A DNA stretch of 64,000 nucleotides from Janthinobacterium tructae. Lineage in GTDB: Bacteria; Pseudomonadota; Gammaproteobacteria; Burkholderiales; Burkholderiaceae_D. Under the pieces are notes generated by a model. That model was given only the letters and a program-made list of their open reading frames with translations, had not been told where the DNA came from and made no database searches. Positions 28,076 to 47,229 of this stretch are shown here, piece by piece (position 1 is the stretch's first letter; each line of letters starts with the position of its first letter). The DNA lies in the NCBI RefSeq assembly GCF_006517255.1, contig NZ_CP041185.1, positions 1,860,001 through 1,924,000 on the forward strand. The letters run 5' to 3'. The translations under genes and the position numbers were made by a program.

Positions 28076-28128
28076 CGTGGATACCTGTGGCAATAAGCGG
28101 CATGCCGGAAGAAACATGCCAGGAAGAA

Positions 28129-28153: not shown

Positions 28154-28198
28154 GATCGCCTGCGGCGCGCATGGCCGCAGCAGGCGGGGCTTACGTCA

Positions 28199-28678: not shown

Positions 28679-28696
28679 GCTGATCTCCAAAAAATC

Positions 28697-28723
28697 AAAA
28701 AAACAATGCTGGCAAAATTTGCC
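28697..28723 (-). terminator. Weak terminator-like sequence before mshA
   Basis: The palindrome GGCAAAATTTGCC (28711-28723) is followed on the minus strand by runs of T. It lies between the mshF-like gene and mshA. It might end the E-G-F transcript or be part of an AT-rich promoter; the evidence is weak. Confidence 0.3.
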
Positions 28724-28736
28724 CGCAGAATAAAAA

Positions 28737-29288
28737 CTATCTCAGCCCGCCCGCCTCACCCAACTGTATCAGCGCCACCTCGGGCGCATCAACCGGGCTT
28801 GAGGACTGGACTTGGGTAGCGGATGCTTGCAGCAAGCTTACCTTGAATCGAAGCAACTCGGAATGCCTGGCACCGAAACTGTTGCCTCGATTTAACATAT
28901 ATACCAATTCTGCATTACTTCTATCAAAAAACCAATGACCTAGGGGAAGTTTTTCCATCTCCGGCGCGCTATAGGCGCCCAAATAATTGGCCGGTTTTTC
29001 AGCCAGCCAATCGATGGGGTTTTGCCCTGCCAGCGCCGGCAACTGGTTTTGCCGGTCGGACGCATACAGCTCCAGCACTTGCATGCGCAGCCCCGCGCGC
29101 AGCGCCAGCAGCGTTTGCTGCACGGCGACCCGCTCCGCTTCCTGCTGGACCACCTCCAGCCGGCCCAGCAGCACGACCGCCAGCACGGCGATGACGGACA
29201 CGGCGACGGCCAGTTCAAACAAGGTAAAGCCGCGCTGCCTGGCCTTGCCAGCCAACATGTTGTTTTTTGACGCAATGCGCGGCTTCAT
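28737..29288 (-). CDS. MSHA pilin-like protein in the MshF/MshB position
   Basis: Pilin-like protein of 183 residues with prepilin motif RQRGFTLFELAVAVSVIAVL (Glu at +5). An amphipathic alpha1 continues as EVVQQEAERVAVQQTLLALR, shortened to EVVQQEAERVAVQQ. The rest has no Cys pair and no recognised signature. Between mshG and mshA, Vibrio carries mshF and mshB; only this gene is present here, so it is named by position, not by sequence. It overlaps the mshG start region upstream by 4 bp (29285-29288). Confidence 0.75.
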   Translation of the reverse strand: MKPRIASKNNMLAGKARQRGFTLFELAVAVSVIAVLAVVLLGRLEVVQQEAERVAVQQTLLALRAGLRMQVLELYASDRQNQLPALAGQNPIDWLAEKPANYLGAYSAPEMEKLPLGHWFFDRSNAELVYMLNRGNSFGARHSELLRFKVSLLQASATQVQSSSPVDAPEVALIQLGEAGGLR

Positions 29289-30520: not shown

Positions 30521-30521
30521 C

Positions 30522-32433: not shown

Positions 32434-33162
32434 ATGAACGCCTGCGCCATCGAGTTCCACAACGTGCACCTGCAACTGGCGGGTAGCGCCGTGCTGCGCG
32501 GGGTCGACCTGCAGGTGCGCGCAGGGGAACTGTTCGGCCTGGTCGGCGTGAATGGCGCGGGGAAAACTTCCCTGCTGAAATGCCTGCTGGACTTTTGCTC
32601 GCCCGAGCGGGGCGATATCGCCATTTTCGGCGCGCCGCACCGGCATGGCGCGGCGCGCCAGCCCCTGTCCTTTCTGCCGGAACGCTTCCAGGCGCCGTAC
32701 TACCTGACGGGCGGCGACTTCCTGCGCTACCTGTCACGCCTGCACAATGTGCGCCCCGATGCGCAAACCGTGCAGAAAGCCCTGGATGCGCTGGACCTTG
32801 CGCCGGAGGCCTTGCTGCGCCCTGCGCGCAATTACTCGAAAGGCATGATGCAGAAACTGGGGCTGGCCGCCTGCTTGCTGTCGGGCAAGCAGCAACTGGT
32901 GCTGGACGAACCAATGAGCGGCCTCGACCCGAAGGCGCGCGCGCAGTTCAAGCAGGTGCTGCGGCAAGCGCGCGCGCAGGGACGCGGCGCCCTGCTCACC
33001 TCGCATGCGCTGGCTGACGTGGAAGAATTGTGCGACCGCATGGCCATCCTGCATGGGGGCCGCATCATGTTTACAGGTACGCCCGCCGAATGCCGCGCGC
33101 TCCATGGCGGTGCTGCGGGCGCCAGCCTGGAACAGGCTTTCCTCAATTGCATCGCGGCATGA
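32434..33162 (+). CDS. ABC transporter ATP-binding protein of the second pilus-like system
   Basis: ABC ATPase of 242 residues. Walker A is GVNGAGKTS, the signature motif is the variant YSKGMMQKLGL, Walker B is QLVLDEPMSGLD, and the switch His is in LLTSHALADVEELCDRM. This is the drug/ABC-2 exporter type (CcmA, YhaQ-like). Its likely partner is the ABC-2 permease at 45075-45848, 12 kb away but in the same run of genes. ATG 32434 is used because the family starts there. The next gene overlaps by ATGA. Why a pilus-type locus starts with an ABC ATPase is unknown; similar pairings of ABC transporters with type II secretion-like clusters are known in deltaproteobacteria. Confidence 0.92.
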   Translation: MNACAIEFHNVHLQLAGSAVLRGVDLQVRAGELFGLVGVNGAGKTSLLKCLLDFCSPERGDIAIFGAPHRHGAARQPLSFLPERFQAPYYLTGGDFLRYLSRLHNVRPDAQTVQKALDALDLAPEALLRPARNYSKGMMQKLGLAACLLSGKQQLVLDEPMSGLDPKARAQFKQVLRQARAQGRGALLTSHALADVEELCDRMAILHGGRIMFTGTPAECRALHGGAAGASLEQAFLNCIAA

Positions 33163-34592
33163 ACACCGACAGGCACGCTCAGCCCCAGGCGCCGCCCGGA
33201 CGGCCTTACGCACCGTCCCCGCACGGCATGTATCTACGCCATTTCGGCTTGCGCACGGCGCCCTTCGGCATCACGCCGGACCCTGCTTTCTTTTACCCTG
33301 GCAATACGCGCGGCGAATTGCTCGCGGCGCTGCTATATGCCGTCACGCAAGGCGAAGGCATCATCAAGCTGACGGGCGAAGTGGGCAGCGGCAAGACCAT
33401 GCTGTGCCGCATGCTGGCAGAACGCCTGCCGCCCCAGGTCGACGTGGTGTACCTGCTCAATCCCCGCCTGGAACCGGATGAAGTCCTGCACGCCATCGCC
33501 GCAGAACTGGGCCTGGCACTGGACGGCTGCCTCACCGATGCCGTGCTGCGCGCCCTGCATGGCGAGCTGATCTCCCGACATGCGGCCGGGCGCCAGGTGG
33601 TGCTTCTGGCAGAAGAGGCGCAAGCCATGCCGGGCGCCACCCTGGAAGCGCTGCGCCTGCTGACGAACCTGGAGACAGCCAGCCACAAGCTGCTGCAAAT
33701 CGTGCTGTTTGGCCAGCCGGAATTGCAACAGACCCTGGACTTGCCCGAGTTCCGCCAGTTAAAGGAACGCATCACCCACAGTTTTACCGTGCCATGCCTG
33801 CCACACGCATTGCTGAACGACTATCTGGCGTGCCGCCTGGCCGCCGCCGGCCGCATCGCCCCGCTCATTTTCACCCCAGCCGCACTGCGCCGGCTGGCGC
33901 GTGCCGCGCAGGGTATCGTGCGCAGGATCAATATCCTGGCCGACAAAGCCTTGCTGGCCGCGTATGCGGACGATGCGCAGCAAGTGAGCGCGCGCCATGT
34001 GCGCCTGGCCATTGCCGACAGCCCCTTCCACCGTCCACCCTGGCACGCGGGCAAGCTGCTGGCAGGCGCCTTGAGCGCGCTGATGCTGGTGCTGGCCCTT
34101 GCGCTGCTGTGGCAATGGCGGACCAGCGACCAGGGTCAGATGCGCCGCACTCCGCCCGCCGACGCAGCCCCAGGCGCGTTCCAGGCCGCCGCCGCGCACG
34201 TGCCGCTGCGAGCGCCGACAACACTGCTCGACAGCAAGCTGGCCGAATCGCGCGACTGGCTGACAAGGCAAGGGCCGCAGCAACTGGTGCTGCAAATCGC
34301 CAGCCTGCCCGCCACCGAGACGGTCGCTGCGGAAACTTTCCTGGAGCAGGCGCAACAAGCCATCGGCCTGCGCAACATCCACGTGTTTCGCCTGCCAGAC
34401 GCAGCGCCGGCGAGCGCCACCGCGCGCCTGGACATCGTCTATGGCAGCTTTGCCGACCGAGCCAGCGCCGAAGCCGTCTGGTCCAGGATCGCGCCGACAG
34501 CGCCACAGAAAATATTGCTGAACGACATAGAAAGTATCCGCATGGAAATAAAATCCGCAGCGCAGGTGCAAACGGCGCGTGGCGCCCCCTGA
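33159..34592 (+). CDS. ExeA/DamX-like ATPase with C-terminal SPOR-like domain
   Basis: Bitopic protein of 477 residues. The N-terminal ExeA-type AAA+ domain (about residues 23-290) has FGLRTAPFGITPDPAFFY, shortened to APFGITPD, Walker A GEVGSGKTMLC, and a Walker B in which the usual DE is EE (VVLLAEEAQ). A transmembrane helix lies at about residues 308-327. The C-terminal 90 residues look like a SPOR domain (LVLQIASLPATE ... LDIVYGSFADRASAEAVW), which in other proteins binds denuded septal peptidoglycan. The combination recalls DamX and ExeA. It could place or help insert the secretin. The start at 33159 overlaps the ABC ATPase stop as ATGA. Confidence 0.85.
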   Translation: MNTDRHAQPQAPPGRPYAPSPHGMYLRHFGLRTAPFGITPDPAFFYPGNTRGELLAALLYAVTQGEGIIKLTGEVGSGKTMLCRMLAERLPPQVDVVYLLNPRLEPDEVLHAIAAELGLALDGCLTDAVLRALHGELISRHAAGRQVVLLAEEAQAMPGATLEALRLLTNLETASHKLLQIVLFGQPELQQTLDLPEFRQLKERITHSFTVPCLPHALLNDYLACRLAAAGRIAPLIFTPAALRRLARAAQGIVRRINILADKALLAAYADDAQQVSARHVRLAIADSPFHRPPWHAGKLLAGALSALMLVLALALLWQWRTSDQGQMRRTPPADAAPGAFQAAAAHVPLRAPTTLLDSKLAESRDWLTRQGPQQLVLQIASLPATETVAAETFLEQAQQAIGLRNIHVFRLPDAAPASATARLDIVYGSFADRASAEAVWSRIAPTAPQKILLNDIESIRMEIKSAAQVQTARGAP

Positions 34593-34632
34593 CTTTATTT
34601 CGGCACATTGCCTTCCTGGCCCGCACAGCCGA

Positions 34633-34662
34633 TTGCTTTTAGGCGATCATGCTTGGTAAAAT
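34633..34662 (+). promoter_or_regulatory. Possible promoter of the secretin gene
   Basis: TTGCTT at 34633-34638 and TAAAAT at 34657-34662 with an 18-bp spacer lie 38 bp before the ATG at 34700. It fills the only sizeable gap (107 bp) in the first part of the second system. The -35 is poor. A start near 34669 would argue against the upstream ATG at 34649. Confidence 0.35.
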
Positions 34663-34699
34663 TGCAAAAGCACAACACGACTCCAAGGGCGAACTTTTC

Positions 34700-36649
34700 A
34701 TGAATCAACACCCTATTCCTGTGCTGACCACTTGGGTCGCCCTCGCCTGCGGCGCCATGCTGTCTGGCTGCGCCACGCATCAAACACCGCTGTCGCCTGT
34801 CCACCTCAATGCCGCGCCCCTGCCCACAGGCGTCATTCCCGAGCCGGTGCAGCAAAGCAGCGCGCTGGCCGCGCCTCTGCCGGCGCCCAAAGTGGAAACC
34901 TACAGCGTCACCGTACACAAGGTGCCCGTACAATCGCTGCTGTTTGCGCTGGCGCGCGACGCGGGCATGAATATCGATATCCACCCGCAGATCGAAGGCA
35001 GCGTCACCCTGAATGCGCTGAACCAGACCCTGCCGCAACTGCTGGCGCGTATCGGCAAGCAAGTCGATATGCGCTACGAAATCGATGGCAAGAACCTGAC
35101 GGTGCTGCCCGACGCACCCGTATGGCGCAATTACAAGGTCGATTACGTCAACATGGCGCGCAGCACCAACAGCAGCGTGAATATCGCCACGCAAATTTCC
35201 ACGGCCGGCAGCGGGTCGAACAATGCCAGCAACCCCGTTGGCGGCACGCAAGGCAGCAATGGCAACAACAATTCGACCACCCTGGTGGTGAATCGTTCGG
35301 AAAATAATTTCTGGTACAGCCTGGAAAAGAATATCCGCGACCTGCTGCGCGAGACCACGCTCAACGATGTGCAGGTGGACCCACTGGCGCAGCTGAACCA
35401 ACAGCTGACGAGCGTGTCCGGTCAGCAGGGGCAACAAGGACAGCAGCAGAACCAGGCCGGCAATCTCGCCGCGACGGGCCAGTACGGCGCCCAGCCGCCT
35501 ATGCAGGGTGGCAGCCAGAATGGCGGACTATATGCACCTGCGCCGGGCCAGCAGGTGGCCGGCCAGAACGCATCCCCTGCCCAGCCGCTGGACGCGAACG
35601 GCATGCCGCTGTTAAAACTGGCCAACAAGGGCAGCCCGTCGTCTGTGGTCGTCAACGTGGAGGGCGGGCTGATCGCCGTGCGGGCCACGGGGCGCCAGCA
35701 CGAAAAGATCGCCGAATTCCTCGATGTGGTAGTACACAGCGCCAAGCGGCAAGTGTTGATCGAGGCGACCATCATCGAAGTGCGCCTGAGCAATGAATAC
35801 CAGCAAGGCATCAACTGGTCGCGCCTGACGGGCAGCCTGCAGCTGCGGCAGGGCCAAGTGGGCACGACGGTCCTGTCCAGCGGCGTCACGCCCAATATCA
35901 CGCCGGGCATCTTCCTGCTCAATTATGCGAAAGACAGTTTTGCCACCACCATCCAGCTGCTCGAATCGTTCGGCAAGGTGAAAGTACTGTCCAGCCCGAA
36001 GATCAGCGTGCTCAACAATCAGACGGCCATGCTGAAGGTGGTGGACAACAATGTCTTCTTTACCATCAAGGTGACGCCCGCCGTGATCAGCTCGACGGGC
36101 ACCATCACCACGCCGGCCACCTATGAATCGAAACTGGAAACGGTACCCGTGGGCTTCGTCATGAGCGTCACGCCGCAGATTTCCGACAGCGATGAAGTGA
36201 CCTTGAACGTGCGCCCCACCATCACGCGCATCGTTGGCTACGTGCAAGACCCGAATCCGGCCCTGGCCACGGCGAATGTGCAAAGCCGCGTACCCGTGAT
36301 CCAGGCGCGCGAGCTGGAATCGATCATGAAAGTGAGCAATGGCCAGATCGCCGTAATGGGCGGCCTGATGCAAGATTCCATCGACAATGCCAGGGATGGC
36401 GTGCCGGGCCTGTCCAGCCTTCCCTTGGTGGGCAACCTGTTTACCTATCGCAAGGAAGCGAGCAGCAAGACGGAGCTGGTGATCTTCATGCGCCCCGTGG
36501 TGGTCAAGGACGCCAGCATCGACGGCGATTACCGCGACTACCGCTACCTGCTGCCCGGCCAGGCGCCACTCAACACCCAGCCGTACACGGATGGCCCGCC
36601 GGCGCCCGCCGTCCTGCCGCAGGCACGCCTGCAGGGAGACTTTCCATGA
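34700..36649 (+). CDS. Lipoprotein secretin of the second pilus-like system
   Basis: Secretin (GspD/PilQ/MshL family) of 649 residues. A signal peptide with lipobox GAMLSGC suggests a self-piloting lipidated secretin. The N-terminal N0/STN-like domain contains VPVQSLLFALARDAGMNID, marked LLFALARDAGMN. A Gln/Gly/Asn-rich linker (about residues 250-300) follows. The core has VVNVEGGLIAVRATGRQH, VLIEATIIEVRLSNEYQQG, VKVLSSPKISVLNNQTAML, VPVGFVMSVTPQI and LSSLPLVGNLFTYR. The layout is that of MshL at 17142-18950, so the two are paralogues. The stop overlaps the next gene by ATGA. Confidence 0.93.
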   Translation: MNQHPIPVLTTWVALACGAMLSGCATHQTPLSPVHLNAAPLPTGVIPEPVQQSSALAAPLPAPKVETYSVTVHKVPVQSLLFALARDAGMNIDIHPQIEGSVTLNALNQTLPQLLARIGKQVDMRYEIDGKNLTVLPDAPVWRNYKVDYVNMARSTNSSVNIATQISTAGSGSNNASNPVGGTQGSNGNNNSTTLVVNRSENNFWYSLEKNIRDLLRETTLNDVQVDPLAQLNQQLTSVSGQQGQQGQQQNQAGNLAATGQYGAQPPMQGGSQNGGLYAPAPGQQVAGQNASPAQPLDANGMPLLKLANKGSPSSVVVNVEGGLIAVRATGRQHEKIAEFLDVVVHSAKRQVLIEATIIEVRLSNEYQQGINWSRLTGSLQLRQGQVGTTVLSSGVTPNITPGIFLLNYAKDSFATTIQLLESFGKVKVLSSPKISVLNNQTAMLKVVDNNVFFTIKVTPAVISSTGTITTPATYESKLETVPVGFVMSVTPQISDSDEVTLNVRPTITRIVGYVQDPNPALATANVQSRVPVIQARELESIMKVSNGQIAVMGGLMQDSIDNARDGVPGLSSLPLVGNLFTYRKEASSKTELVIFMRPVVVKDASIDGDYRDYRYLLPGQAPLNTQPYTDGPPAPAVLPQARLQGDFP

Positions 36650-38031
36650 GCTTGCTGATGCAGGCGCTCAAGAAGGCCGAGCGCGCCAAGCAGAACAGCC
36701 TTTCCGACGAGGAGCTGGAAAAGCCGTCCGAAGCCTACGACCAGGTGCTGGAACTGGCGCCGGCCGACGCCCTGCCGCCCCGTCCCGCGCCTGCTGCGCC
36801 GGCGTCCGTGCAGCCGGCAAGCACCTTGCGCCTGGAACCGCTGGCGGACGTGCCCGCGCCGCAGCCAGCGCAGAATGCGGCACAGCCAGATCCACAGCCC
36901 AAGCCGCAACCGGGTCCACGTCCAGAACCGCCGCCCATCCGGCCACGCGCCAGTCGCAGCACTCCTCCGCCGAAAGGCCCCATGGGGCCCATCAGCGTCG
37001 ACCCGGCCACCGTGCGCCTGGCCATCCTGCTGGCGATATTGCTGCTGGTGGCCGGTTCCATGGCGTACTGGTACTGGCGCGCCAGCAACAGCCCAGGCGC
37101 CGGCGCCAACCTGCCCGGCGTGCCCATGCCGCTAACGGACGCTCCGGGCACGGCCGGCGTTGCAGGTCCCGTGCTGGTGCTGCCGGCAACGGGGGCCGCG
37201 CAGGCGGACGCCATGACGCCCGAAGCACTGCCGCCGGACTATCCGCGCGACGCGCGTCAGCAAGCGGGTGCGGCGGATCAGCAGGCGATGATACAGGCGG
37301 CAGCCCAGGCCGCCGTGGCGGCACAGCTGGCGAACATGGCGCCGCCCGCGCCGCCCAGCTTGCCGCCGGTGGCCGCGCCCGAGAATAGCCAGATCCAGGT
37401 GCAGCGCAGCGTGGCCGCGCCGCAAATCAACCCCGGCGTGCAGCAAGCCTATCAAGCCTTCAACGGGGGCCAGCTGGGTCTTGCTCGTCAACAATATGAA
37501 ATGGTGCTGCGGCAGGATGCCACCAACCGCGACGCGCTGCTGGGCCTGGCGGCCGTGGCCCTGCGCGAGCAGCAGGGCGCGCAGGCGGCGGCCTTGTACG
37601 TGCGTTTGCTGGAAATCAACCCCGACGATGGCGAGGCGCTGGCCGGCCTGATCGGGCTGCGCCAGGGCGACGTGGCGCAGAGCGAGGCAAAATTGAAGGC
37701 TATCCTGGCGCGCAGTCCCGACAGCGCCCCAGTGCTATTTGCACTGGGCAATGTGTACGCCAAGCAGCGCCGCTGGACCGAAGCGCAGCAGCAATTTTTC
37801 CGCGCCTGCGGCGCCGCGCCCGGCAATCCCGACTATGCCTTCAACCTGGCCGTAGGCCTGGACCGGCTGAACCAGCCGAAACTGGCCGCCACGTATTACC
37901 AGCGCGCATTGACCCTGGCGCAAACCACGCCCGCCGCGTTCGACCAGGCCGTCGTGCAGACGCGCTTGCGCGAACTGGCTGCCGCCACTCCCCCGGCCGA
38001 TCCGGCCAACATTACACCCCGTCAGGATTAA
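36646..38031 (+). CDS. Inner-membrane TPR protein (MshN-like)
   Basis: Bitopic protein of 461 residues. The start MSLLMQALKKAERAKQ resembles the cytoplasmic N-terminus of MshN and GspB-like proteins. A long Pro-rich cytoplasmic linker, one transmembrane helix (about residues 124-142), a second Ala/Pro-rich linker and C-terminal TPR repeats (VQQAYQAFNGGQLGLARQQYE reduced to YQAFNGGQLGLARQQYE, and FALGNVYAKQRRWTEAQQQF) follow. By analogy with MshN it would connect the ExeA-like ATPase with the secretin. It overlaps the secretin stop as ATGA and ends 7 bp before the ATPase gene. Confidence 0.85.
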   Translation: MSLLMQALKKAERAKQNSLSDEELEKPSEAYDQVLELAPADALPPRPAPAAPASVQPASTLRLEPLADVPAPQPAQNAAQPDPQPKPQPGPRPEPPPIRPRASRSTPPPKGPMGPISVDPATVRLAILLAILLLVAGSMAYWYWRASNSPGAGANLPGVPMPLTDAPGTAGVAGPVLVLPATGAAQADAMTPEALPPDYPRDARQQAGAADQQAMIQAAAQAAVAAQLANMAPPAPPSLPPVAAPENSQIQVQRSVAAPQINPGVQQAYQAFNGGQLGLARQQYEMVLRQDATNRDALLGLAAVALREQQGAQAAALYVRLLEINPDDGEALAGLIGLRQGDVAQSEAKLKAILARSPDSAPVLFALGNVYAKQRRWTEAQQQFFRACGAAPGNPDYAFNLAVGLDRLNQPKLAATYYQRALTLAQTTPAAFDQAVVQTRLRELAAATPPADPANITPRQD

Positions 38032-38038
38032 GCTTTAC

Positions 38039-39742
38039 ATGGCAGAACAGGCAAAACTTCCGCTGGGCAAAGTGCTGATCCAGAAAGGCGTGATCAGCGA
38101 AGACCAGTTGCGCATCGCCCTGATCGAACAGCGGCGCAGCAGCGAACCGCTGGGCAAGCTGCTGATCACCCTGGGCTTCGTCACGGAAGCGACCGTGCGC
38201 GAGGCGCTCAGCGAAAACCTGAAACAGGTCAGCGCGGACTTGTCGAGCCTGGTGGTCGACGCCATCGCCTTGAAACTGATCCCGAAGGACGTGGCCAAAC
38301 GCTACCGCGTCTTTCCCATCGTGTATGAGCGGCAAGCCGATAATTTGATCCTGGCCATGGCCGACACCAGCAATATCGTGGCGCTCGACCAGATCAGCGC
38401 CATGCTGGTCAAGGGCATCACGATTTCCACCGTGCTGGTCAACGAATCGGACATTTCCCGCGCCATCGACCAGTACTATGGCTTTGAATTGTCGATCGAC
38501 GGCATCCTGCACGAAATCGAAACGGGCGAAGTCAGCTACCAGAGCATGGCATCGCCGTCGGACGAGTACAGCCAGCCCATGGTGCGCCTGATCGACGCGC
38601 TGCTGGCGGACGCCGTGCAGAACGGCGCCTCGGACATCCATTTCGAGCCGGAACAGTCATTCCTGCGCATCCGCTACCGCATCGACGGCATCCTGCGGCA
38701 GATCCGCAGCCTGCACAAATCGTACTGGCCGGCCATGGCCGTGCGCCTGAAGGTGATGTCGAACATGAATATCGCCGAGGCGCGCGCGCCGCAGGATGGA
38801 CGCATCAGCATCAAGTTTTCCGGGCGGCAAATCGATTTCCGCGCGTCGGCGCAGCCCACCACGCACGGCGAAAATGTCGTGCTGCGCGTGCTGGACCGCC
38901 AGAAAGGCATCGTCCCGCTGGATGCACTGGGCCTGGCCGAAGCGGAACTGAACTTGTTGAAACTCATGATCGCGCGCCCCGACGGCGTGATCCTCGTGAC
39001 GGGGCCGACGGGCAGCGGCAAGACCACCACCCTGTATTCGATACTCAACCATATCAATACGGAAAGCGTCAACATCATGACGCTGGAAGACCCGGTCGAG
39101 TATCCGATGAACATGATACGCCAGACTTCCGTCAACGAATCGGTCAAGCTGGGCTTTGCCGACGGCATCCGCTCGATGATGCGGCAAGACCCGGACATCA
39201 TCCTGGTGGGCGAGATCCGCGACCGCGAAACGGCGGAAATGGCGTTTGCCGCCGCCATGACGGGCCACCAGGTGTATTCAACCCTGCATACGAACTCGTC
39301 CATCGGCTCCATCTCGCGCCTGCTCGACATCGGCATCCTGCCCGACATCATGGCCGGCAACATCATCGGCATCGTGGCGCAGCGCCTGATACGCCGTTTA
39401 TGCCCGCATTGCAAGGAAACGGTGATCGCCGACGACGTCGAGCGCCGGCTGCTGGGCCTGGCGATAGACGATGCGCCCGTCTCCATCTGCCGCGCCGCCG
39501 GCTGCGAGCGCTGCGCGTACCAGGGCTACAAGGGGCGCTTGGCCATCATGGAAATCCTCAAGATGACGGCCGAACTCGATGAATTGACGGCGCGCCGCGC
39601 CAGTTCGCGCGAATTGAAGAACGCGGCGCGCGCGGCCGGTTTCAAGGGCATCATCGACGACGGCATGCGCCGCGTGCTGGAAGGCGTGACAACCCTGGAA
39701 GAAGTGGGCCGCGTCGTCGACCTGACGGAAAGGCTGGCCTGA
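38039..39742 (+). CDS. GspE/PilB-type assembly ATPase of the second system
   Basis: Secretion/pilus assembly ATPase of 567 residues, the same length as MshE. An MshEN-like N-terminal domain is present, but the ligand positions differ: PLGKVLIQKGVISEDQ has Pro8 where MshE has Arg, Gln31 is kept, and the second repeat has Pro37 and Asn60. Cyclic-di-GMP binding is therefore doubtful. The ATPase core is intact: Walker A GPTGSGKTT (about residue 320), Walker B DPDIILVGEIRDRET, and the tetracysteine CPHC ... CERC. The stop overlaps the platform gene as TGATG. No retraction ATPase is nearby, which fits a type II secretion or non-retracting pilus. Confidence 0.94.
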   Translation: MAEQAKLPLGKVLIQKGVISEDQLRIALIEQRRSSEPLGKLLITLGFVTEATVREALSENLKQVSADLSSLVVDAIALKLIPKDVAKRYRVFPIVYERQADNLILAMADTSNIVALDQISAMLVKGITISTVLVNESDISRAIDQYYGFELSIDGILHEIETGEVSYQSMASPSDEYSQPMVRLIDALLADAVQNGASDIHFEPEQSFLRIRYRIDGILRQIRSLHKSYWPAMAVRLKVMSNMNIAEARAPQDGRISIKFSGRQIDFRASAQPTTHGENVVLRVLDRQKGIVPLDALGLAEAELNLLKLMIARPDGVILVTGPTGSGKTTTLYSILNHINTESVNIMTLEDPVEYPMNMIRQTSVNESVKLGFADGIRSMMRQDPDIILVGEIRDRETAEMAFAAAMTGHQVYSTLHTNSSIGSISRLLDIGILPDIMAGNIIGIVAQRLIRRLCPHCKETVIADDVERRLLGLAIDDAPVSICRAAGCERCAYQGYKGRLAIMEILKMTAELDELTARRASSRELKNAARAAGFKGIIDDGMRRVLEGVTTLEEVGRVVDLTERLA

Positions 39743-40947
39743 TGGCGCAATATGTCTACCGTGCCATGGATGCCGCCGGTGCATTGATTCCCGGCAGCAT
39801 GGAGGCGGCCAACGTGCCGGACCTCGAAGCGCGCCTGCACCGCATGCAGCTCGACCTGATCGACTGCAAGATCACGGGCCGGTATCTGGTGCTGCTGGGC
39901 AAGCGGGTCATTCACCGCCGCGACCTGATCAATTTCTGTTTCCACATGGAACAGTTGACGGGTGCCGGCGTACCCATCCTGGAAGGATTGAACGACTTGC
40001 GCGAAAGCACGGATCACCCGCGCCTGCGCGAAGTCGTCACGGATTTAATCGAAAGCATCGAAGGCGGCTTGCCCCTGTCGGGCGCGCTAGCCCAGCATGG
40101 CGACATCTTCGACGCCACTTTTACCAGCCTGATACTGGCGGGCGAACAAAGTGGCAGGATCGCCGAGGTATTCAAGAACCTGTCGGAAAGTTTAAAATGG
40201 CAGGACGAGTTGGCGTCGCACACGCGCAAGATCGTCATGTACCCCATCATCGTGGCCGTCGTCGTGGCGGCCGTGACGTTTTTCCTGATGATTTATCTGG
40301 TGCCTCAGCTGACGGCCTTCATTCGCAACATGGGTGGCGAACTGCCGCTGCACACGCGCGTTTTGATAGCCGTGTCGAATGTCTTCATCGATTACTGGTA
40401 TCTGCTTCTGGCCTTGCCAGTGCTGCTGTTCTTCGGCTTGCGCGCGCTCATCCGCCGCAGCGAAGGCGCCCGTTATGCCTGGGATGGCCTGAAGCTGCGG
40501 CTGTGGCTGGTCGGACCCGTGCTGCACAAGATCATCCTGGCCCGCTTCGCCACGTTTTTTGCCTTGATGTATGCTTCGGGCATCACGATACTCGAATGCA
40601 TACGCCTGTCCGAAGGCATCGCCGGCAACCAGGTGGTGGCGGCCGGCTTGCGCCGCGCCGCCCAGCTGATCAGCGAAGGCTACGGGGTCACCGCAGCCTT
40701 CCAGCACACGGGCATCTTCCCGCCGCTGGTGATCCGCATGCTGAAGGTGGGCGAGGCAACGGGTTCGCTGGACACGGCCTTGCGCAATGTCAGTTACTTT
40801 TACAACCGCGAAGTGAAGGAATTGATTGAAAAAGTGCAAGCCATGATCGAGCCGGCCATGACGGTCATCCTGGGCCTGCTGCTGGGCTGGATCATGCTGT
40901 CGGTGCTGGGGCCGATTTACGACACCATCAGTACAATCAAGACCTGA
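39742..40947 (+). CDS. GspF/PilC-type platform protein of the second system
   Basis: Polytopic inner-membrane protein of 401 residues with two GspF domains: FCFHMEQLTGAGVPILEGL and FATFFALMYASGITILECI are the paired signatures, followed by AGEQSGRIAEVF and VGEATGSLDTAL. Three transmembrane helices lie at about residues 168-192, 213-235 and 372-392. It would convert ATPase motion into pilin insertion. It overlaps the ATPase gene by one base. It resembles MshG in architecture but diverges clearly in sequence. Confidence 0.94.
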   Translation: MAQYVYRAMDAAGALIPGSMEAANVPDLEARLHRMQLDLIDCKITGRYLVLLGKRVIHRRDLINFCFHMEQLTGAGVPILEGLNDLRESTDHPRLREVVTDLIESIEGGLPLSGALAQHGDIFDATFTSLILAGEQSGRIAEVFKNLSESLKWQDELASHTRKIVMYPIIVAVVVAAVTFFLMIYLVPQLTAFIRNMGGELPLHTRVLIAVSNVFIDYWYLLLALPVLLFFGLRALIRRSEGARYAWDGLKLRLWLVGPVLHKIILARFATFFALMYASGITILECIRLSEGIAGNQVVAAGLRRAAQLISEGYGVTAAFQHTGIFPPLVIRMLKVGEATGSLDTALRNVSYFYNREVKELIEKVQAMIEPAMTVILGLLLGWIMLSVLGPIYDTISTIKT

Positions 40948-40954
40948 GGCCGCC

Positions 40955-42517
40955 GTGTTCCGTAAACAATTACTTTACATCACCAGCGACGCCCTGTGCG
41001 CCTATGACTGGGACCACGGCGTGCTGGGCGAGGGCCAGGCCTTCCCCGCCAGCGCCGCCGGGCTGGACGGTTTCGCCGCGTGGCTGGAAGATCCGCAGGC
41101 GCACCGTCTCGACGTGCCCGCCTACCTGCTGACGGACTTGATCGAGGAAGATTTCCAGCGCCAGTTGCTGCCCCACGTGCGCGGCAAGGCGGGCCGTGCC
41201 TTGCTTGAGCGGCGCAAGCAGCAATTGCACCGCGACACGCCCTACCGGGGCAGCACCCTGCTGGGCCGCGACAGCACGGGCCGCCACGATGACCAGGTGC
41301 TGTTTTTCGCCCTGACCAACCCCAGCTTGCTGCAGCCGTGGACGGAGGCGCTCGAGCACTTGCGCGTGCCCGTGGCCGGCATCTATTCGACCAGCCTGCT
41401 GAGTATCGCCCTGGTCAAAAAGCTGTCGATCGCGCACGAACACCTGCTGCTGGTGACGCAGCAATCGGGTGGCTTGCGGCAAAGCTATTATGAAAAGGGC
41501 CAACTGCGCTTTTCGCGCCAGACCCTGGCCATCGCACTCGACGGCGTGGCCGTGAATATTGCGCTGGAAACGGAAAAGACACGACAATTTCTCACCAGCA
41601 CGCGCATGCTGGCGCGCGGCGACGTACTCAATACCGTCATCCTGGCGCCGGCGGCGCAGATCGCCAAGCTCGAACTGCTGTGTGACAACGGTGTGGAAGT
41701 AGCTTACCACTTCATCGACCTGCAACTGGCAGGCGAACGGGTGGGCTTGCGCCAGACGCCGGTGCTGGCCGACGAATTGCTGCTGACCTTGCTGGGCAAG
41801 CATCCGCCGCCCAGTCACTATCCGCCCGGTGCGCTGGCCCGCTATTACCACTTCCAGCGCACGCGCAAAGCGCTGTATGGCGCCAGCACGCTGATCGGTG
41901 GGTCGGCCGCGCTATGGTGCGCGATTAACTTGCTCGGCGGCATAGCCGACGACAACAGCACCCAGCGCCTGGCGCAGGAAACGGCGTCCTACCAGGAACG
42001 CTACCGCAGCGTCATGTCGACGCAGCCGCCGGCGCCGGCCAAGACGCAGAACATGAAAGTGGCCGTGACCTTGGGCCGGATGATCGCCAGCCAGGCGCCG
42101 GAGCCGGGCCGGCTGCTGGGCATGCTGAGCGCCGCGCTGGATCAAGCGCCGCAGGTAGCGCTCAGCCAGCTGCACTGGCATGCAGGCCCGGCGCCCGCGC
42201 GCACGGCCGACAGCCAGCCAGCACAGCAGCCGGGCGCCAGCTTGCAGGGCGGCAGCGCCCAGGCCGGCATTCCCACCGCGCCGCCGCAAACGCTGCGCCT
42301 GGAAGCGGACGTGGCCATGCCGAACAATGACTACCGCGCCGCCCTTGCCGCCCTTACGGCCTTCGCGCAAACCCTGGCGCGCCAGCAGGGCATGCAAGTG
42401 ACGATAGCGGAAACGCCGCTGGACTTGCGCCCCAGCGCGGCCCTGTCCGGCAAGAGCGCCGCACCGGCGCCGGACAGCCAGGCCCGCTTTACCCTCTTGC
42501 TGGAGTGGCAGCCATGA
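40955..42517 (+). CDS. GspL-like (PilM-PilN fused) inner-membrane protein
   Basis: Protein of 520 residues, named by architecture. The N-terminal 300 residues look like a divergent actin-fold PilM/GspL cytoplasmic domain (LLYITSDALCAYDWD, FFALTNPSLLQPWTEALEHL shortened to LLQPWTEALE, and HEHLLLVTQQSGGLRQSYYE shortened to LLLVTQQSGG). One transmembrane helix follows at about residues 308-329, then a periplasmic part ending in VTIAETPLDLRPS and FTLLLEWQP like PilN/GspL. Thus MshI and MshI2 functions appear joined in one chain, as in GspL. The start is GTG at 40955, 7 bp after the previous stop. The assignment is an inference from place and topology. Confidence 0.7.
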   Translation: MFRKQLLYITSDALCAYDWDHGVLGEGQAFPASAAGLDGFAAWLEDPQAHRLDVPAYLLTDLIEEDFQRQLLPHVRGKAGRALLERRKQQLHRDTPYRGSTLLGRDSTGRHDDQVLFFALTNPSLLQPWTEALEHLRVPVAGIYSTSLLSIALVKKLSIAHEHLLLVTQQSGGLRQSYYEKGQLRFSRQTLAIALDGVAVNIALETEKTRQFLTSTRMLARGDVLNTVILAPAAQIAKLELLCDNGVEVAYHFIDLQLAGERVGLRQTPVLADELLLTLLGKHPPPSHYPPGALARYYHFQRTRKALYGASTLIGGSAALWCAINLLGGIADDNSTQRLAQETASYQERYRSVMSTQPPAPAKTQNMKVAVTLGRMIASQAPEPGRLLGMLSAALDQAPQVALSQLHWHAGPAPARTADSQPAQQPGASLQGGSAQAGIPTAPPQTLRLEADVAMPNNDYRAALAALTAFAQTLARQQGMQVTIAETPLDLRPSAALSGKSAAPAPDSQARFTLLLEWQP

Positions 42518-43212
42518 GCGGCCCCGTCAAGCAGCCGCCCCTGCCCGGCATGCAGCGCGCCGCCACGCCCGCGCGCACCCTGCCCGCCTGGCTGGGCGAA
42601 CTGCACCTGCTGCGCAGCGCCCTGCTGTGCTTTGCCCTGACCCTGCTGGCCAGCGTGGTGCTGCTCAGCCTGAGCGCCGCCTACCGCATGCGCGAAGCAC
42701 AACGGCTGTACCTGGCCGAGCACACGCGCGCCGCGGCGGCCACCCTGTTCAACCACGCGGAAACGGAAAAGCAGGAAATCCGCGCCTACGAACCGCAATT
42801 CCTGGCCTTGCGCCAGCGCGGCCTGATCGGCGAGGAAAACCGCCTGGCCTGGATCGACGCCATCCGCCGCAGCCAGGAACAGCGCAAATTGCTGCCGATC
42901 AGCTATGACATCAGCCCGCAGCAAGGACTGCAAGTGCCGTTGCCCATGGTGATGGGGCAATATCAGCTGCGCGGCAGCCGCATGCGCATGCAGATGGATT
43001 TGCTGCACGAGATGGACTTGCTGAACCTGTTGGACGATTTGCGCCAGGCCGGCTATTTCGCCGTGCAGGATTGCACGCTCAAGCGCCATGGAGCAGCCGG
43101 GAGCGGCAGCGGCAACGCGATCGCCACGGGCGCCATGGCGCCCGCCCTGGGCGCCGAATGTGAGCTGCTGTGGCTGACCGTCAACAGCGTGCCCGTGCCG
43201 GGGCGGCCATGA
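42514..43212 (+). CDS. PilO/GspM-like inner-membrane protein
   Basis: Bitopic protein of 232 residues with a Pro-rich cytoplasmic start, one transmembrane helix (LLCFALTLLASVVLLSLSAA), a coiled-coil region (about residues 55-125) and a C-terminal PilO-like domain (VMGQYQLRGSRMRMQMDLLHEM shortened to MGQYQLRGSRMRMQMDLL). Position after the GspL-like gene and before the PilP-like gene is that of pilO. It overlaps the previous gene by ATGA; an in-frame ATG three codons earlier is possible. Equivalent to MshJ. Confidence 0.8.
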   Translation: MSGPVKQPPLPGMQRAATPARTLPAWLGELHLLRSALLCFALTLLASVVLLSLSAAYRMREAQRLYLAEHTRAAAATLFNHAETEKQEIRAYEPQFLALRQRGLIGEENRLAWIDAIRRSQEQRKLLPISYDISPQQGLQVPLPMVMGQYQLRGSRMRMQMDLLHEMDLLNLLDDLRQAGYFAVQDCTLKRHGAAGSGSGNAIATGAMAPALGAECELLWLTVNSVPVPGRP

Positions 43213-43619
43213 GGTACACCCTCATCCTGTCCGCGCTGCTGGCCGGCGCCGCGCTGACGGCCCGCGCCCAGCCACCGCAGCTGGGGCGATTATTCCTGTC
43301 GCCCGAGCAACGCGCCCAGCTCGACACGCAGCGCTACGGGGCGCCACCGCCCGATCCCGCCCTGGCGGCGCCGCCTCCGCCACCGCCGCCGCCCGCCCCG
43401 CCCGTGGAATTGAATGGCGTGGTGCAGCGCAGCAGCGGACGCTCCACCGTCTGGCTGAACCAGGAAGCGCAGAACGAGCCGCACAACCGCCTTGCCAGTG
43501 GCAAGCCCGGCACATTGACCCTGCGCCTGTCGAACGGCCAAGTGGTGCGGCTCAAACCCGGCCAGCGCTACGACCCGGTCAGCGGCACGGTCAGCGAAAT
43601 GCAGGAGACGCCGCCATGA
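43209..43619 (+). CDS. PilP/MshK-like exported protein
   Basis: Small exported protein of 136 residues. A signal peptide (MRYTLILSALLAGAALTA, cleavage near ARAQ) precedes LGRLFLSPEQRAQLD, an uninterrupted proline run and a beta-rich domain: VELNGVVQRSSGRSTVWLN then LRLSNGQVVRLKPGQRYD. The ELNGVV...G...VWLN pattern resembles the HR domain of PilP/GspC that binds the secretin N0 domain, and LSPEQR is common in such small partners of MSHA-like systems. It overlaps genes on both sides by ATGA. Confidence 0.8.
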   Translation: MRYTLILSALLAGAALTARAQPPQLGRLFLSPEQRAQLDTQRYGAPPPDPALAAPPPPPPPPAPPVELNGVVQRSSGRSTVWLNQEAQNEPHNRLASGKPGTLTLRLSNGQVVRLKPGQRYDPVSGTVSEMQETPP

Positions 43620-44362
43620 CGCCACGGCAAGCACATCGGCAAACACATCGCCAACCGCGCCGCCAGCACGGTGCCGCCCTGTTGCTGTTGCTGGCCGTGC
43701 TGGGCCTGGGCGCGGCCAGCCTCCTGATCAGCGCCTTCGGCCGCAACACGGGCGAGGCCGAACGCCAGCAGCGTACGCTGGCCACCCTGGCGCAGGCGCG
43801 CGAAGCCTTGCTGGGCTTTGCCGCGACGCAAGGCCGCCTGCCCCGTCCGGCCGCCTCCGCCCTCGACGGGCGCGAGCGGGCCGCCGACTGCGCCGACGAC
43901 GCCGAGTGCAGCGGCTTTTTGCCGTGGGTCGCGCTGGGCGTGGCGGGCAGCGATGCCTGGGGCAAGCTGCTGCGCTACAGCGTCACGCCGGCAATGGCGC
44001 GCGCGCCCATCGTCTCGTTTTCCGCCGTCGCCAACAGAGTCGTGCTCACGCGCGGCGGACGCGGCGAACTCGCCTACGTGGCGGGACAGGACCAGTGCGA
44101 CGTCAGCGCCCAATGCCTGCCCGCCGTGCTGTTCTCGCAAGGCAAGGATCACTATGGCACGGCTGCCAGCGGCGTGCCGCAGATCAATACCGCGCGCGGC
44201 AATATCGATGAAGCGGCCAACGACAGCGCCAGCCGTAGTTTCATCGCCCGCCCCGCCACCGAGCTTGCCGTGCGGCCCGGGGGCGCCTTTGACGACATGT
44301 TGACCTGGATCACCTTGCCCACCCTGTATCAACGCATGCGCGCCGCGCGCAACCTGCCATGA
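43616..44362 (+). CDS. Pilin-like protein lacking Glu5 (GspK/PilX-like)
   Basis: Protein of 248 residues with a prepilin-like N-terminus RRQHGAALLLLLAVLGLG. After the predicted G/A cleavage there is no Glu at +5, as in GspK and PilX tip pseudopilins. From about residue 60 it is clearly paralogous to the next gene: AREALLGFAATQGRLP, GFLPWVALG, AWGKLLRYSVTPA and GGAFDDMLTWI each have a counterpart there. Three or four Cys occur in CADDAECS and QCDVSAQC. It may form the tip together with its neighbour. It overlaps the genes before and after by ATGA. Confidence 0.78.
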   Translation: MTPRQAHRQTHRQPRRQHGAALLLLLAVLGLGAASLLISAFGRNTGEAERQQRTLATLAQAREALLGFAATQGRLPRPAASALDGRERAADCADDAECSGFLPWVALGVAGSDAWGKLLRYSVTPAMARAPIVSFSAVANRVVLTRGGRGELAYVAGQDQCDVSAQCLPAVLFSQGKDHYGTAASGVPQINTARGNIDEAANDSASRSFIARPATELAVRPGGAFDDMLTWITLPTLYQRMRAARNLP

Positions 44363-45075
44363 GTAACATGTATCGTTCCCCGCGCCGCCAGGGCGGTTTT
44401 TCCCTGATCGAGATCGCCATCGTGCTCGTCATCGTGGGCCTGATGATAGGCGGCCTGGTCACGCCCTTGACGGTACAACTGGAACAGCGCAAGGTGGCAG
44501 ATACGCAACAGGCGCTCAATGAAGCGAAGGAAGCGCTGACGGGCTACGCGCTGCGCTACGGCTATTTGCCCTGTCCCGCCGTCTCCGCCGCCAGTGGCCT
44601 GGAAGACAGGCGCGGCGCCCGCTGCAGCGGGGAGCGGCGCGCCGGCTTCCTGCCTTGGGCCACCCTGGGACTGCGCCAGAGCGATAGCTGGAACAATCTG
44701 TTCCGCTACAGCGTCACCCCGGCCTTCAGCGACAGCGAGCGGCAGTTCACCCTCGGCACGCCGCGCGACATCAGCATCGTCACGCGCAACGGCGGCGCGC
44801 TGCTGCAGGCGACGGCGCTGAACGATATCCCCGCCATGATCATGTCGCACGGCAAGAACGGTTTTGGCGCCACGGGCGTGCAGGGCCAGCGCCAGGCTGT
44901 GCCTTTCAGCAACAATGTCGACGAGCGCAACAATGCCTCGAACGCCACCACCTTCATCAGCCGCGCCGCCAGCGGCCCGCAGCAGCCGGGCGGCGAGTTC
45001 GACGACCTCGTCGTCTGGCTGTCGCCGAACATCCTGTTCAACCGCATGGTGGTGGCACAAAGACTGCCCCGCTGA
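44359..45075 (+). CDS. Prepilin-type protein, paralogue of the preceding pilin
   Basis: Prepilin of 238 residues with a canonical motif RRQGGFSLIEIAIVLVIVGL (cleavage after G, Glu at +5). The domain that follows matches the preceding protein: AKEALTGYALRYGYLP, GFLPWATLG, SWNNLFRYSVTPAF, MSHGKNGFGATG and GGEFDDLVVWLSP. The long 200-residue soluble domain indicates a minor pilin. It overlaps the permease gene by one base (TGATG). It would be processed by a prepilin peptidase encoded outside the window. Confidence 0.85.
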   Translation: MSNMYRSPRRQGGFSLIEIAIVLVIVGLMIGGLVTPLTVQLEQRKVADTQQALNEAKEALTGYALRYGYLPCPAVSAASGLEDRRGARCSGERRAGFLPWATLGLRQSDSWNNLFRYSVTPAFSDSERQFTLGTPRDISIVTRNGGALLQATALNDIPAMIMSHGKNGFGATGVQGQRQAVPFSNNVDERNNASNATTFISRAASGPQQPGGEFDDLVVWLSPNILFNRMVVAQRLPR

Positions 45076-45848
45076 TGCCGATGCTATTTCCCGCCTTCAC
45101 CATCGCCCGCTACACGCTGCTCGAAGCGCTGCGCAGCCGCCTGCTGTGGCTCTTCGTGCTGGCCGCCTGCGGCGCCGCCGCCCTGGCCGGCTTCCTGCAG
45201 CAACTGGCGCTGACGGAAAGCGGCGCCGTGCAGGCGGCGCTGCTGGCGGCCACCTTGCGCCTGGCCGCTGTCTTCCTGCTGGGCACCTTCATCATCACCA
45301 GCATGGCGCGCGAAGCGGCCGACCGGGGACTGGAATTGCTGCTGGCACTGCCCATGCCGCGCGCGGCCTACTTGCTGGGGAAACTGCTGGGCTACGGGGC
45401 CCTGGCGGCCGTGCCCGCCGTGCTGTTCGGCCTGTTGATGGCGCTGTTCGCCGCTCCCGCGCACAGCGCGCTGTGGGCCCTGTCCCTGCTGGGGGAACTG
45501 TGGATCGTCGCCTCCTTCAGCCTGCTGTGCGCGGCCAGCCTGCAACAGGCCCTGCCCGCACTGGCCGCCACGGGCGGCTTCTATGTGCTGGCGCGCATGC
45601 TGGGCAGCCTGCAACTGCTGGCGCACGGCCCGCAAGCGGGCGACTCGCTGCTGCAGCGGGCCACAGCCGGCGCCATCGACGTACTGGCCCTGCTCCTGCC
45701 CCGCCTGGACGCCTTTACGCGCACGGACTGGCTGCTGTACGCCACCGGCGACTGGCAGGCGCTGGTCAATGTGGTGGCGCAAACCATCATCTATGTCGGC
45801 TTGCTGGCCAGTTGCGCGCTGTGCGACTTTTACCGCAGGAATATCTGA
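45075..45848 (+). CDS. ABC-2 type permease of the second system
   Basis: Polytopic membrane protein of 257 residues with about six hydrophobic segments (near residues 18-38, 54-74, 107-131, 139-160, 166-190 and 232-250). FTIARYTLLEALRSRLLWLF at the N-terminus and REAADRGLELLLALPMPRAAYLLGK (marked RGLELLLALPMPR) are typical of ABC-2 permeases of the CcmB/YhaP kind. The only ABC ATPase nearby is at 32434-33162, the first gene of the same run. One-base overlaps on both sides (TGATG) tie it to the pilin and TPR-like genes. The substrate is unknown. Confidence 0.85.
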   Translation: MPMLFPAFTIARYTLLEALRSRLLWLFVLAACGAAALAGFLQQLALTESGAVQAALLAATLRLAAVFLLGTFIITSMAREAADRGLELLLALPMPRAAYLLGKLLGYGALAAVPAVLFGLLMALFAAPAHSALWALSLLGELWIVASFSLLCAASLQQALPALAATGGFYVLARMLGSLQLLAHGPQAGDSLLQRATAGAIDVLALLLPRLDAFTRTDWLLYATGDWQALVNVVAQTIIYVGLLASCALCDFYRRNI

Positions 45849-46570
45849 TGGCCGCCATCCAGCGCCCCTGGACGAGCGTGCCGCGCCCCCTGTGCTGGCT
45901 GCTGGCCGCCTGCCTGCTGTTGCAGCTGGGCTGGCGAGTGGCGCAGCAGCACGCTCCGGCCCAGGTGCGGCCCCTGCCTGCGCCGCCGCCGCCGGCCGTG
46001 GCGCGCCTGGCCAGCCTGGGCGAGCCGCTGGCCATGGCTAAGGCCATGCTGCTGTACCTGCAATCGTTCGAGGACCAGCCCGGCGTCAGCCTGGCGTGGC
46101 GCCAGCTCGACTATGACCGCCTGGCTGGCTGGCTGGAGACGGCGCAAACGCTCGATCCGCGCAGCCAGTATGCGCTGGTGGCTGCCAGTGTAGTGTACGC
46201 GGGCGTGTCCGATCCGCAGCGCGCGCGGCGCATGCTCACTTTTGTCGCCGCCAGCTTCGCCGCCGACCCGCAGCGCCGCTGGCCCGCCATGGCGCAAGCG
46301 GTGCTGGTGGCAAAACACCAGCTGCACGATTTGCCGCTGGCACTGGCGTATGCGCGCCAGTTGCGCCAGTTGGCGACGGGGCCGCAAGTGCCAGCCTGGG
46401 TGCGCGAGATGGAAGCGTTTATCCTGGAAGACATGGACCAGCTCGACAGCGCCCGCCTGGTAATCGGCGGGCTGATCGCCAGCGGACACATCAGCGACCC
46501 GCACGAACTGGCTTTCCTGGCGCGCCGGCTCGACGAACTTGCCAGGAAGAAAGTAAGGGCGACGCCATGA
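45848..46570 (+). CDS. Membrane-anchored TPR-like protein of the second system
   Basis: Protein of 240 residues, not recognised by name. One N-terminal hydrophobic segment (PLCWLLAACLLLQLGW) and a Pro-rich linker precede an all-helical region with TPR-like spacing (AMLLYLQSFEDQPG, LAGWLETAQTLDPRSQYALV shortened to LETAQTLDPRSQYAL, ALAYARQLRQLATG). It is probably periplasmic and anchored in the inner membrane. It begins in the stop of the permease gene, which suggests a role with the transporter. Confidence 0.7.
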   Translation: MAAIQRPWTSVPRPLCWLLAACLLLQLGWRVAQQHAPAQVRPLPAPPPPAVARLASLGEPLAMAKAMLLYLQSFEDQPGVSLAWRQLDYDRLAGWLETAQTLDPRSQYALVAASVVYAGVSDPQRARRMLTFVAASFAADPQRRWPAMAQAVLVAKHQLHDLPLALAYARQLRQLATGPQVPAWVREMEAFILEDMDQLDSARLVIGGLIASGHISDPHELAFLARRLDELARKKVRATP

Positions 46571-46656
46571 GCCGCCGTCAGAAAGGCCATACGCATCCAG
46601 CATCAATTGCAGTAAACTGCCATCTCAAGTTATCGCACTTTTTTCAAGGAAAACCC

Positions 46657-47229
46657 ATGCCCCCACGCCGCCAGCACGGCTTTACGCTCGTAGAAATCGC
46701 CATCGTCCTGGTCATCATCGGTTTGCTGCTCGGTGGCGTACTCAAAGGACAAGGCTTGATCGACAGCGCCAAGGTGAAAAACATCATCCAGCAGTCGAAT
46801 GCGCTGACGGCCGCCGTCAACGCCTACCAGGACAAGTTCCGCGCCCTGCCTGGCGACGATATTCAGGGCACCACCCACGTGCCCCATTCGGCTGGCAACG
46901 GCAATGGCGACGGCCAGATCGGCGACGGCCAGCCGCGCGAATTCACGCTGGCGCCGCAACACCTGGCGCTGGGCGGCTTCATTACCGGCTCGTTCAACGG
47001 CACCTCGCAATTCATGACCAGCGCCCAGGGTGGCGCCGTCTACCTGTACAACGACGAAGTGGGCGGCCGTGCCGGCAACGGCATCCGTTTCGACAACCTG
47101 CCCGAGAGTTACGCGGAGCAGATCGACAGCAAACTCGACGATGGCGTGGCCGCCACGGGCAGCGTGCGGGCGAACGTACCCTATGGCAATACCGGTGCTA
47201 TCATTCCCCGCACCGCCGTGTTTTTCTGA
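46657..47229 (+). CDS. Prepilin, probable main pilin or pseudopilin of the second system
   Basis: Prepilin of 190 residues with a short leader MPPRRQHG and FTLVEIAIVLVIIGLLLGG. Glu is at +5. The soluble domain has NALTAAVNAYQDKFRALPGDD, marked VNAYQDKFRALPGDD, which is common in pseudopilins of this type, and an Asp/Asn/Gly-rich loop GNGNGDGQIGDG that might bind calcium. ATG 46657 has a good ribosome-binding site (AAGGA); an upstream in-frame ATG at 46567 lacks support. It is separated from the preceding gene by 86 bp, unlike the tightly overlapping genes before it, so it may be transcribed more strongly. Confidence 0.85.
   Translation: MPPRRQHGFTLVEIAIVLVIIGLLLGGVLKGQGLIDSAKVKNIIQQSNALTAAVNAYQDKFRALPGDDIQGTTHVPHSAGNGNGDGQIGDGQPREFTLAPQHLALGGFITGSFNGTSQFMTSAQGGAVYLYNDEVGGRAGNGIRFDNLPESYAEQIDSKLDDGVAATGSVRANVPYGNTGAIIPRTAVFF

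Follow-up and report, generated by a model that had tools for sequence, protein, structure and literature searches.

A second, MSHA-like filament locus of Janthinobacterium tructae with an apparently dispensable ABC module

Positions 32434 to 47229 of the window, a 64,000-nt stretch of the Janthinobacterium tructae genome (6.31 Mb, single contig; NZ_CP041185.1, positions 1,860,001 to 1,924,000), hold fourteen plus-strand genes. They combine the core of a mannose-sensitive haemagglutinin (MSHA)-like type IV filament system (M-L-N-E-G-I-J-K and three pilins) with a three-gene ATP-binding cassette (ABC) module made of an ATPase (abcA), a permease of NosY fold (abcP) and a membrane-anchored protein resembling tetratricopeptide repeat (TPR) proteins (tpr2). 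We consider it probable, at roughly 60%, that the cluster is a second, anciently distinct MSHA-like filament machine with a dedicated, dispensable ABC module that handles pilins or filament assembly. At the level of sequence, the comparisons below establish wide conservation of the module, its tie to the core, its siting at the pilin genes and its loss as a unit; that the module acts on the pilins or on the assembly platform we infer by analogy. The genes of the cluster are as follows.

32434..33162, plus strand: abcA, ABC ATPase of 242 amino acids (aa) (PF00005, E 2.9e-21)
33159..34592, plus strand: MshM/ExeA-like AAA ATPase with one transmembrane (TM) segment (PF13401; 47% identical over 287 aa to the copy in the MSHA locus)
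34700..36649, plus strand: lipoprotein secretin, MshL-like (PF00263, E 2.3e-37; TIGR02519, 249.2 bits against a cut-off of 250.2)
36646..38031, plus strand: MshN-like TPR protein, one TM segment (121-139) (TPR families)
38039..39742, plus strand: MshE/GspE-type extension ATPase with an MshEN-type N-terminal domain (NF053729, 65.3 bits, cut-off 38)
39742..40947, plus strand: GspF/MshG-type platform protein (TIGR02120, 280 bits, under the cut-off of 424)
40955..42517, plus strand: MshI/GspL-like protein of 520 aa, one TM segment (no family model above cut-off; core marker, profile A5)
42514..43212, plus strand: PilO/MshJ-like protein, one TM segment (by position, length and topology; no family above cut-off)
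43209..43619, plus strand: PilP/MshK-like protein (by position and length; no family match)
43616..44362, plus strand: GspK/PilX-type pilin without Glu5, candidate tip subunit (N-terminus RQHGAALLLLLAVLG; no family model above cut-off)
44359..45075, plus strand: pilin with canonical GFSLIE prepilin N-terminus (PF07963, E 1.1e-6)
45075..45848, plus strand: abcP, ABC-2 type permease of 257 aa
45848..46570, plus strand: tpr2, N-terminal TM helix and TPR-like helical repeat (AlphaFold 2 model; PDB matches)
46657..47229, plus strand: last pilin (GFTLVEIAIVLVIIGLLLGGVLKGQ), candidate partner of the ABC module (PF07963, E 1.6e-8)

All fourteen genes lie where a preliminary description of this DNA had placed them, and its account of a mostly overlapping plus-strand array stands: 9 of the 13 junctions are overlaps of 1 to 4 bp and the remaining four are gaps of 7, 7, 86 and 107 bp, counts that depend on the start codons adopted in the list, some of them picked by us (that of the secretin was placed ahead of the lipobox). 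As also described, the ABC ATPase gene is the first of the series, and the genes for the permease and the anchored TPR-like protein sit among the pilin genes. Chance is an unlikely explanation for the operon since the same gene order recurs in dozens of genomes.

Within the family, the core gene was found in 43 of 195 genomes and the permease in 34 of the 195 (11 of 13 among the same-genus genomes listed). All 34 permease-positive genomes have the core gene, one of them (G029) by weak matches on both sides only. In the wider draws, each of which includes the J. tructae genome itself, the tpr2 profile matched 81 of 349 genomes at order level; at class level it matched 46 of 321, and at phylum level 32 of 299. 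The MshI-like core profile was found in 66 of the 321 class genomes. The core gene accompanies tpr2 in 44 of the 46 tpr2-positive class genomes (by weak matches in G588 and G724), and the two genomes without it are 75% and 78% complete. Conversely, tpr2 is absent from 22 of the 66 core-positive class genomes; six of these are weak core matches and, among the 16 strong ones, a single genome (G814) has the permease. The module-free class loci show the same core, with pilins as well where the DNA reaches far enough. Altogether, these counts indicate that the dependence is one-sided: the module appears to need the core, and the core is often found without the module. The proposal that the ABC genes belong to the machine is thus upheld by their presence with most homologues of the core (permease in 34 of 43 family genomes, tpr2 in 44 of 66 class genomes).

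The permease match of G029 (L061) was rejected as a module locus, since the gene stands alone, flanked by methionine synthase and a chemoreceptor, and an ordinary type II secretion system (T2SS) lies within the same 20 kb; this genome also has a tpr2 match 31 kb away on the same contig and a weak core match on another contig. Eight of the 32 tpr2-positive genomes of the phylum draw have two tpr2 matches each (G871, G874, G884, G894, G939, G942, G980 and G999).

Linkage was scored in 118 distinct loci, each denominator being the number of loci with enough DNA to judge. The permease adjoins tpr2 in 110 of 111 loci (the exception, L051, has a permease in the family gene-order scan), in 94 of 103 a pilin of the last type follows tpr2 within 4.5 kb, and three or more of E, G, I, J and K are found upstream in 65 of 73. 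Four of the eight loci without an upstream core are from genomes that carry the core elsewhere; the rest are L158, L165, L201 and L224. The family gene order, read from 28 loci, is abcA, M, L, N, E, G, I, J, K, pilins, abcP, tpr2, pilin, departures from it being single undetected genes, contig ends and L061. This order is kept across genera of the family and also in the class and named loci; several of the phylum-level loci fetched have the same neighbours and some have only part of them. For abcA, raw counts were set aside and only matches with an SKGM-type signature were counted: although Walker A is intact in all 67 distinct matches of the family profile, 16 of them bear an LSGGE signature that we take to be LptB-like and are probably unrelated neighbours. 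An SKGM-type abcA occurs in 30 of the 37 loci for which both flanks are available (21 of 23 in the family, 9 of 14 outside it). It lies at the 5' end in 21 of the 23 family loci; outside the family it lies at the 3' end in 8 of 14 and at the 5' end in one, and was not seen in five.

Loss of the module is seen most clearly within the family, where 9 of the 43 core-positive genomes lack the permease. In two of them (G067 and G177) the rest of the operon, M through the last pilin, is complete and retains its back-to-back placement relative to the MSHA ATPase, and abcA, abcP and tpr2 are gone. The losses sit in two places, with abcA missing from the 5' end and abcP and tpr2 missing from between the pilins. 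The pilin matches are 18 nt (G067) and 28 nt (G177) apart, and the interval from the MSHA ATPase start to residue 24 of M measures 180 and 178 nt, respectively. A search of this stretch for remnants of the three genes gave no match better than E 0.39, and neither genome yielded a match to tpr2 or the permease elsewhere. A third genome, G155, shows the same absence at the 5' end, its contig stopping at K; absence over the whole locus is therefore seen in two of the three. The three genomes form one clade (100/100). Since this clade is nested among module-bearing loci, the data suggest loss of the module as the simple reading. Because they were lost jointly from two separate places of the operon, the three ABC proteins are best regarded as one unit, and this joint loss is the best evidence here for that view. 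By this evidence abcA, abcP and tpr2 would act as one dedicated, dispensable accessory of the core.

Other candidate losses were rejected. The contigs of G005 and G188 are broken; G021 (86% complete) still has abcA, on a contig that runs out at the pilins; G131 (87% complete) offers a 3-kb contig and G043 a weak core match; in G098 tpr2 and the permease are not there, but the contig ends at that point. In the family tree G021 is labelled module-bearing and G098 is given the label "unknown", and neither touches the loss clade. In a class tree of ATPase plus platform, made by a quick method, with some long branches and with three module-free rows too short to include, the module-free label takes five changes, at least three of them on starred branches. 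We used this count and not that for module-bearing rows (eight), which is inflated as genomes with an unlinked module were labelled apart.

Upstream of the operon, on the opposite strand, lies a separate MSHA locus:

15145..32225, minus strand: MSHA locus (E, G, pilins, MshO, MshQ-like, MshI, MshL, MshM, MshN; some labels by position)
20695-21639: PilM-like protein of the MSHA locus
21808-25959: MshQ-like protein of the MSHA locus, 1383 aa, with DUF6701 and a laminin-G/concanavalin-like domain

The MshL of this locus passes its cut-off (263.8 against 250.2 bits). That a second, complete secretin/pilus-type machine stands back-to-back with it is borne out, and the MSHA ATPase is likewise back-to-back with the operon in 16 of 28 family loci and in L278-L280, most other loci having too little DNA on the MSHA side to judge. 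The suggestion that the plus-strand machine arose by duplication of the adjacent locus fared less well. The two extension ATPases are 38% identical, the platforms 29% and the secretins 24%, and the TPR protein in the MshN place shares 31% over 78 aa with its MSHA-locus copy. In an ATPase tree made by a quick method, the ATPase of each locus clusters, on long branches, with its own counterparts from other genomes; this tree informs on clade membership and gives no firm order of the two clades relative to T2SS or type IVa pili (T4aP). A local MSHA duplication was rejected on account of the low identities and separate ATPase clades, which indicate that the plus-strand machine is anciently distinct from the adjacent MSHA locus.

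Most of the components named in the preliminary description were recovered by family match (ABC ATPase, ExeA-like protein, secretin, TPR protein, GspE, GspF and ABC-2 permease). The GspL-, PilO- and PilP-like labels, and that of the first pilin-like protein, come from position, size, topology and neighbours; MshJ, MshK, GspL-like, MshO, LptB-like and Bce-type are used throughout in what we take to be their usual sense. Of the three pilin-like genes foreseen, two have a canonical prepilin N-terminus and the first is GspK/PilX-like instead, lacking Glu5 and sharing 35% identity with the adjacent pilin across 249 aa. Family searches found neither a PilT-type ATPase nor a prepilin peptidase inside the cluster, in agreement with the earlier account; prepilin peptidases are encoded at three loci elsewhere in the genome, and shorter PF00437 ATPases near 5.08 Mb were taken for PilT-like.

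The ABC proteins have recognizable features. AbcA carries the Walker A motif GVNGAGKT, the signature YSKGM and the Walker B residues DEP, and 1vpl and NosF are among its best PDB matches of single-domain size. The model of the permease, which has no large periplasmic part, is closest in fold to NosY and then to a CcmABCD chain, with PmtD, ABCG and ABCA rows also returned; a PDB sequence search gave four PmtD sequences at E 0.024-0.029. The same kind of search with the MshI-like profile gave no match. The AlphaFold 2 model of tpr2 (pLDDT 92.6) is nearly all helical, with a helix at 13-34 followed by helical pairs, and in the PDB it matches TPR proteins along with other proteins built of helical repeats.

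Two core proteins vary in ways that may bear on function. In the MshEN-type domain of the extension ATPase, the Arg of the first motif is replaced by Pro in the window, in 7 of 7 readable family loci and in one Gallionellaceae locus (the Pro loci are L039, L042, L047, L048, L050, L057, L060 and L157), and is kept in L137, L138 and L139, from three other lineages. If, as we presume, this motif serves binding of cyclic di-GMP (c-di-GMP), control of the ATPase by this nucleotide may be lost or altered. The extension ATPase falls below both the PilB and the GspE equivalog cut-offs; a tandem pair of extension ATPase genes was seen in L277. At the place of the pilin without Glu5, other lineages have a gene for about 950-1,120 aa (about 1,120 aa in L139), possibly a large tip protein:

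L130, 5118-8048: large gene at the place of the pilin without Glu5
L131, 9319-12414: large gene at the same place
L132, 8023-10863: large gene at the same place
L139, 7785-11144: large gene at the same place (no family match)

On the 3' side, the operon is followed by a BOF/YgiW-type stress protein gene (47257-47622) and then by a large hybrid histidine kinase gene (47775-52349). The BOF gene also follows the operon in L039, L040 and L063, and does not in the same-genus locus L041. Some record titles look wrong among L148, L161, L168, L172 and L200: a locus protein on a contig titled "Desulfobulbaceae" is 80% identical to Sulfuricella, and four contigs from metagenome-assembled genomes titled Bordetella parapertussis bear an environmental-type locus.

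We envisaged other roles for the module. In the one proposed by the preliminary description, the machine would be a type II-like exporter, the ABC pair moving a substrate to the periplasm and the pseudopilus and secretin taking it across the outer membrane. The tie of the ABC genes to the machine, the secretin with a short pilin set, and the lack in the cluster of any PilT-type ATPase, a feature shared with T2SS, are in its favor. However, loss of all three ABC genes leaves the core intact, the GspD, GspE and GspF equivalog cut-offs are missed, nothing in the operon stood out as an adaptor protein, and the modeled permease, nearest NosY and then the CcmABCD chain, lacks a large periplasmic part. 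No substrate gene stood out either, though no systematic search for one was made. With nothing found here that favors an ABC exporter feeding the secretin, we regard this coupling as unlikely.

BceAB-type transporters report to histidine kinases, and the ABC pair with its TPR protein might similarly signal the state of the envelope or filament. Consistent with this, a hybrid kinase gene lies just 3' of the operon, and an opposite-strand gene for about 560-600 aa is found between pilin and permease in L131, L133, L138, L139, L140 and L143, which belong to other lineages; of the three products given to family search, those of L133 and L143 pass the HATPase_c cut-off (Pfam) and that of L131 has weak kinase similarity (NCBIfam). 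Yet this kinase-like gene is absent from the Janthinobacterium operon, and the permease is a 257-aa NosY-like protein whereas BceB-type permeases are large, which makes a sensing role quite improbable in our judgment. Least credible of all is that a small-molecule, lipid or peptide exporter merely shares the operon. Permeases of the abcP fold are common exporters (PmtD, ABCG and ABCA rows), but in the family and class draws permease or tpr2 occurs without the core only in two genomes less than 80% complete, and four genomes retain a module that is not linked to their core.

Under the preferred reading, a filament machine with an accessory module, the ExeA-like ATPase, secretin, MshN-like TPR protein, extension ATPase, platform and I, J and K proteins would build a filament from inner-membrane pilins, and the assembled filament would pass through the secretin. 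The ATP cycle of the ABC pair would act on the pilins or on the assembly platform, by insertion, extraction, folding or priming, and the TPR-like protein would relay this action, in the way proposed for pilG, pilH and pilI in Myxococcus piliation. The module would add a second energy input, altering which filament is made or how much of it, with a core that does not depend on it. More tentatively, and as a possibility that we would not press, there may exist in Pseudomonadota a large and so far unnamed class of type IV filament machines powered both by the extension ATPase and by a NosDFY-like mechanochemical ABC engine, which would move pilins in or out of the membrane by way of the anchored TPR arm; Myxococcus PilGHI would embody the same principle. 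To our knowledge, the reason for ABC genes in Myxococcus pili has been open since 1998. A comparable three-gene set, spread over many Pseudomonadota families, tied to a single class of filament and subject to evolutionary gain or loss, provides natural pairs of soil and water bacteria with and without the module, and with them a route to the role of ABC proteins in pilus building.

Among known systems, the machine most resembles MSHA. It has an MshE-like ATPase with MshEN-type domain, MshG-, MshM- and MshN-like proteins, an MshL-like secretin and no PilT-type ATPase in the locus; it differs by a secretin 1 bit under the MshL cut-off, by membership of a clade separate from that of the adjacent MSHA locus, and by its own pilin set and ABC module. 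None of the five genes named as mandatory for the MSH class is an ABC gene (Denise et al., PMC6668835; this and the other papers cited are used in excerpt). The E-, G- and M-like ones were found, the secretin narrowly missing TIGR02519. Gain of MshN and loss of PilT are reported for the MSHA pilus (PMC10191384, a review that in the excerpt used considers MSHA too poorly characterized to tabulate); what the cluster has is a TPR protein in the MshN place, of limited identity to the MSHA-locus copy, and no PilT-type ATPase. The MshEN-domain extension ATPase typical of MSHA is present, c-di-GMP binding being only putative with Pro in the first motif. In the open-access literature, consulted mostly at title and abstract level, we found no earlier description of an MSHA-like system with an ABC module, nor any named system of known substrate with which the cluster could be identified.

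Likeness to T2SS lies in GspD/E/F-type parts and a GspK-like pilin without Glu5. However, the cluster has MshM- and MshN-like parts, family search of the operon found no GspC or GspN, and all the T2SS equivalog cut-offs tested are missed (GspD 145 against 351 bits, GspE 514 against 630, GspF 280 against 424). The module itself recalls NosDFY and CcmABCD, which function in cofactor assembly: the permease fold is nearest NosY and then the CcmABCD chain, the ATPase is near NosF, and a non-ABC partner is encoded alongside. NosD is a beta-helix protein, whereas the partner here is TPR-like and modeled as nearly all helical; no copper or haem genes were seen in the operon.

A parallel in composition, and the nearest experimental precedent, is PilGHI of Myxococcus xanthus, where an ATPase, a permease and an accessory factor are likewise encoded in an operon with a pilin gene. 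There, pilG, pilH and pilI lie in one operon with pilA; their products are described as parts of an ABC-exporter complex, and S-motility is reported to require them (PMC3546991); mutants are without pili (PMC3724824). PilGHI is said to be essential for translocation of pilin across the inner membrane (PMC3546991, PMC3724824, both citing Wu et al. 1998). PMC6060248, in the excerpt used, considers that no experimental data supporting ABC transport are available. Homologues outside Myxococcus have already been noted, since the same paper reports PilG/H/I matches in almost all bacteria studied. The M. xanthus set serves a T4aP, whereas the module described here would serve an MSHA-like core, and the main difference is that over evolution this module appears to be dispensable.

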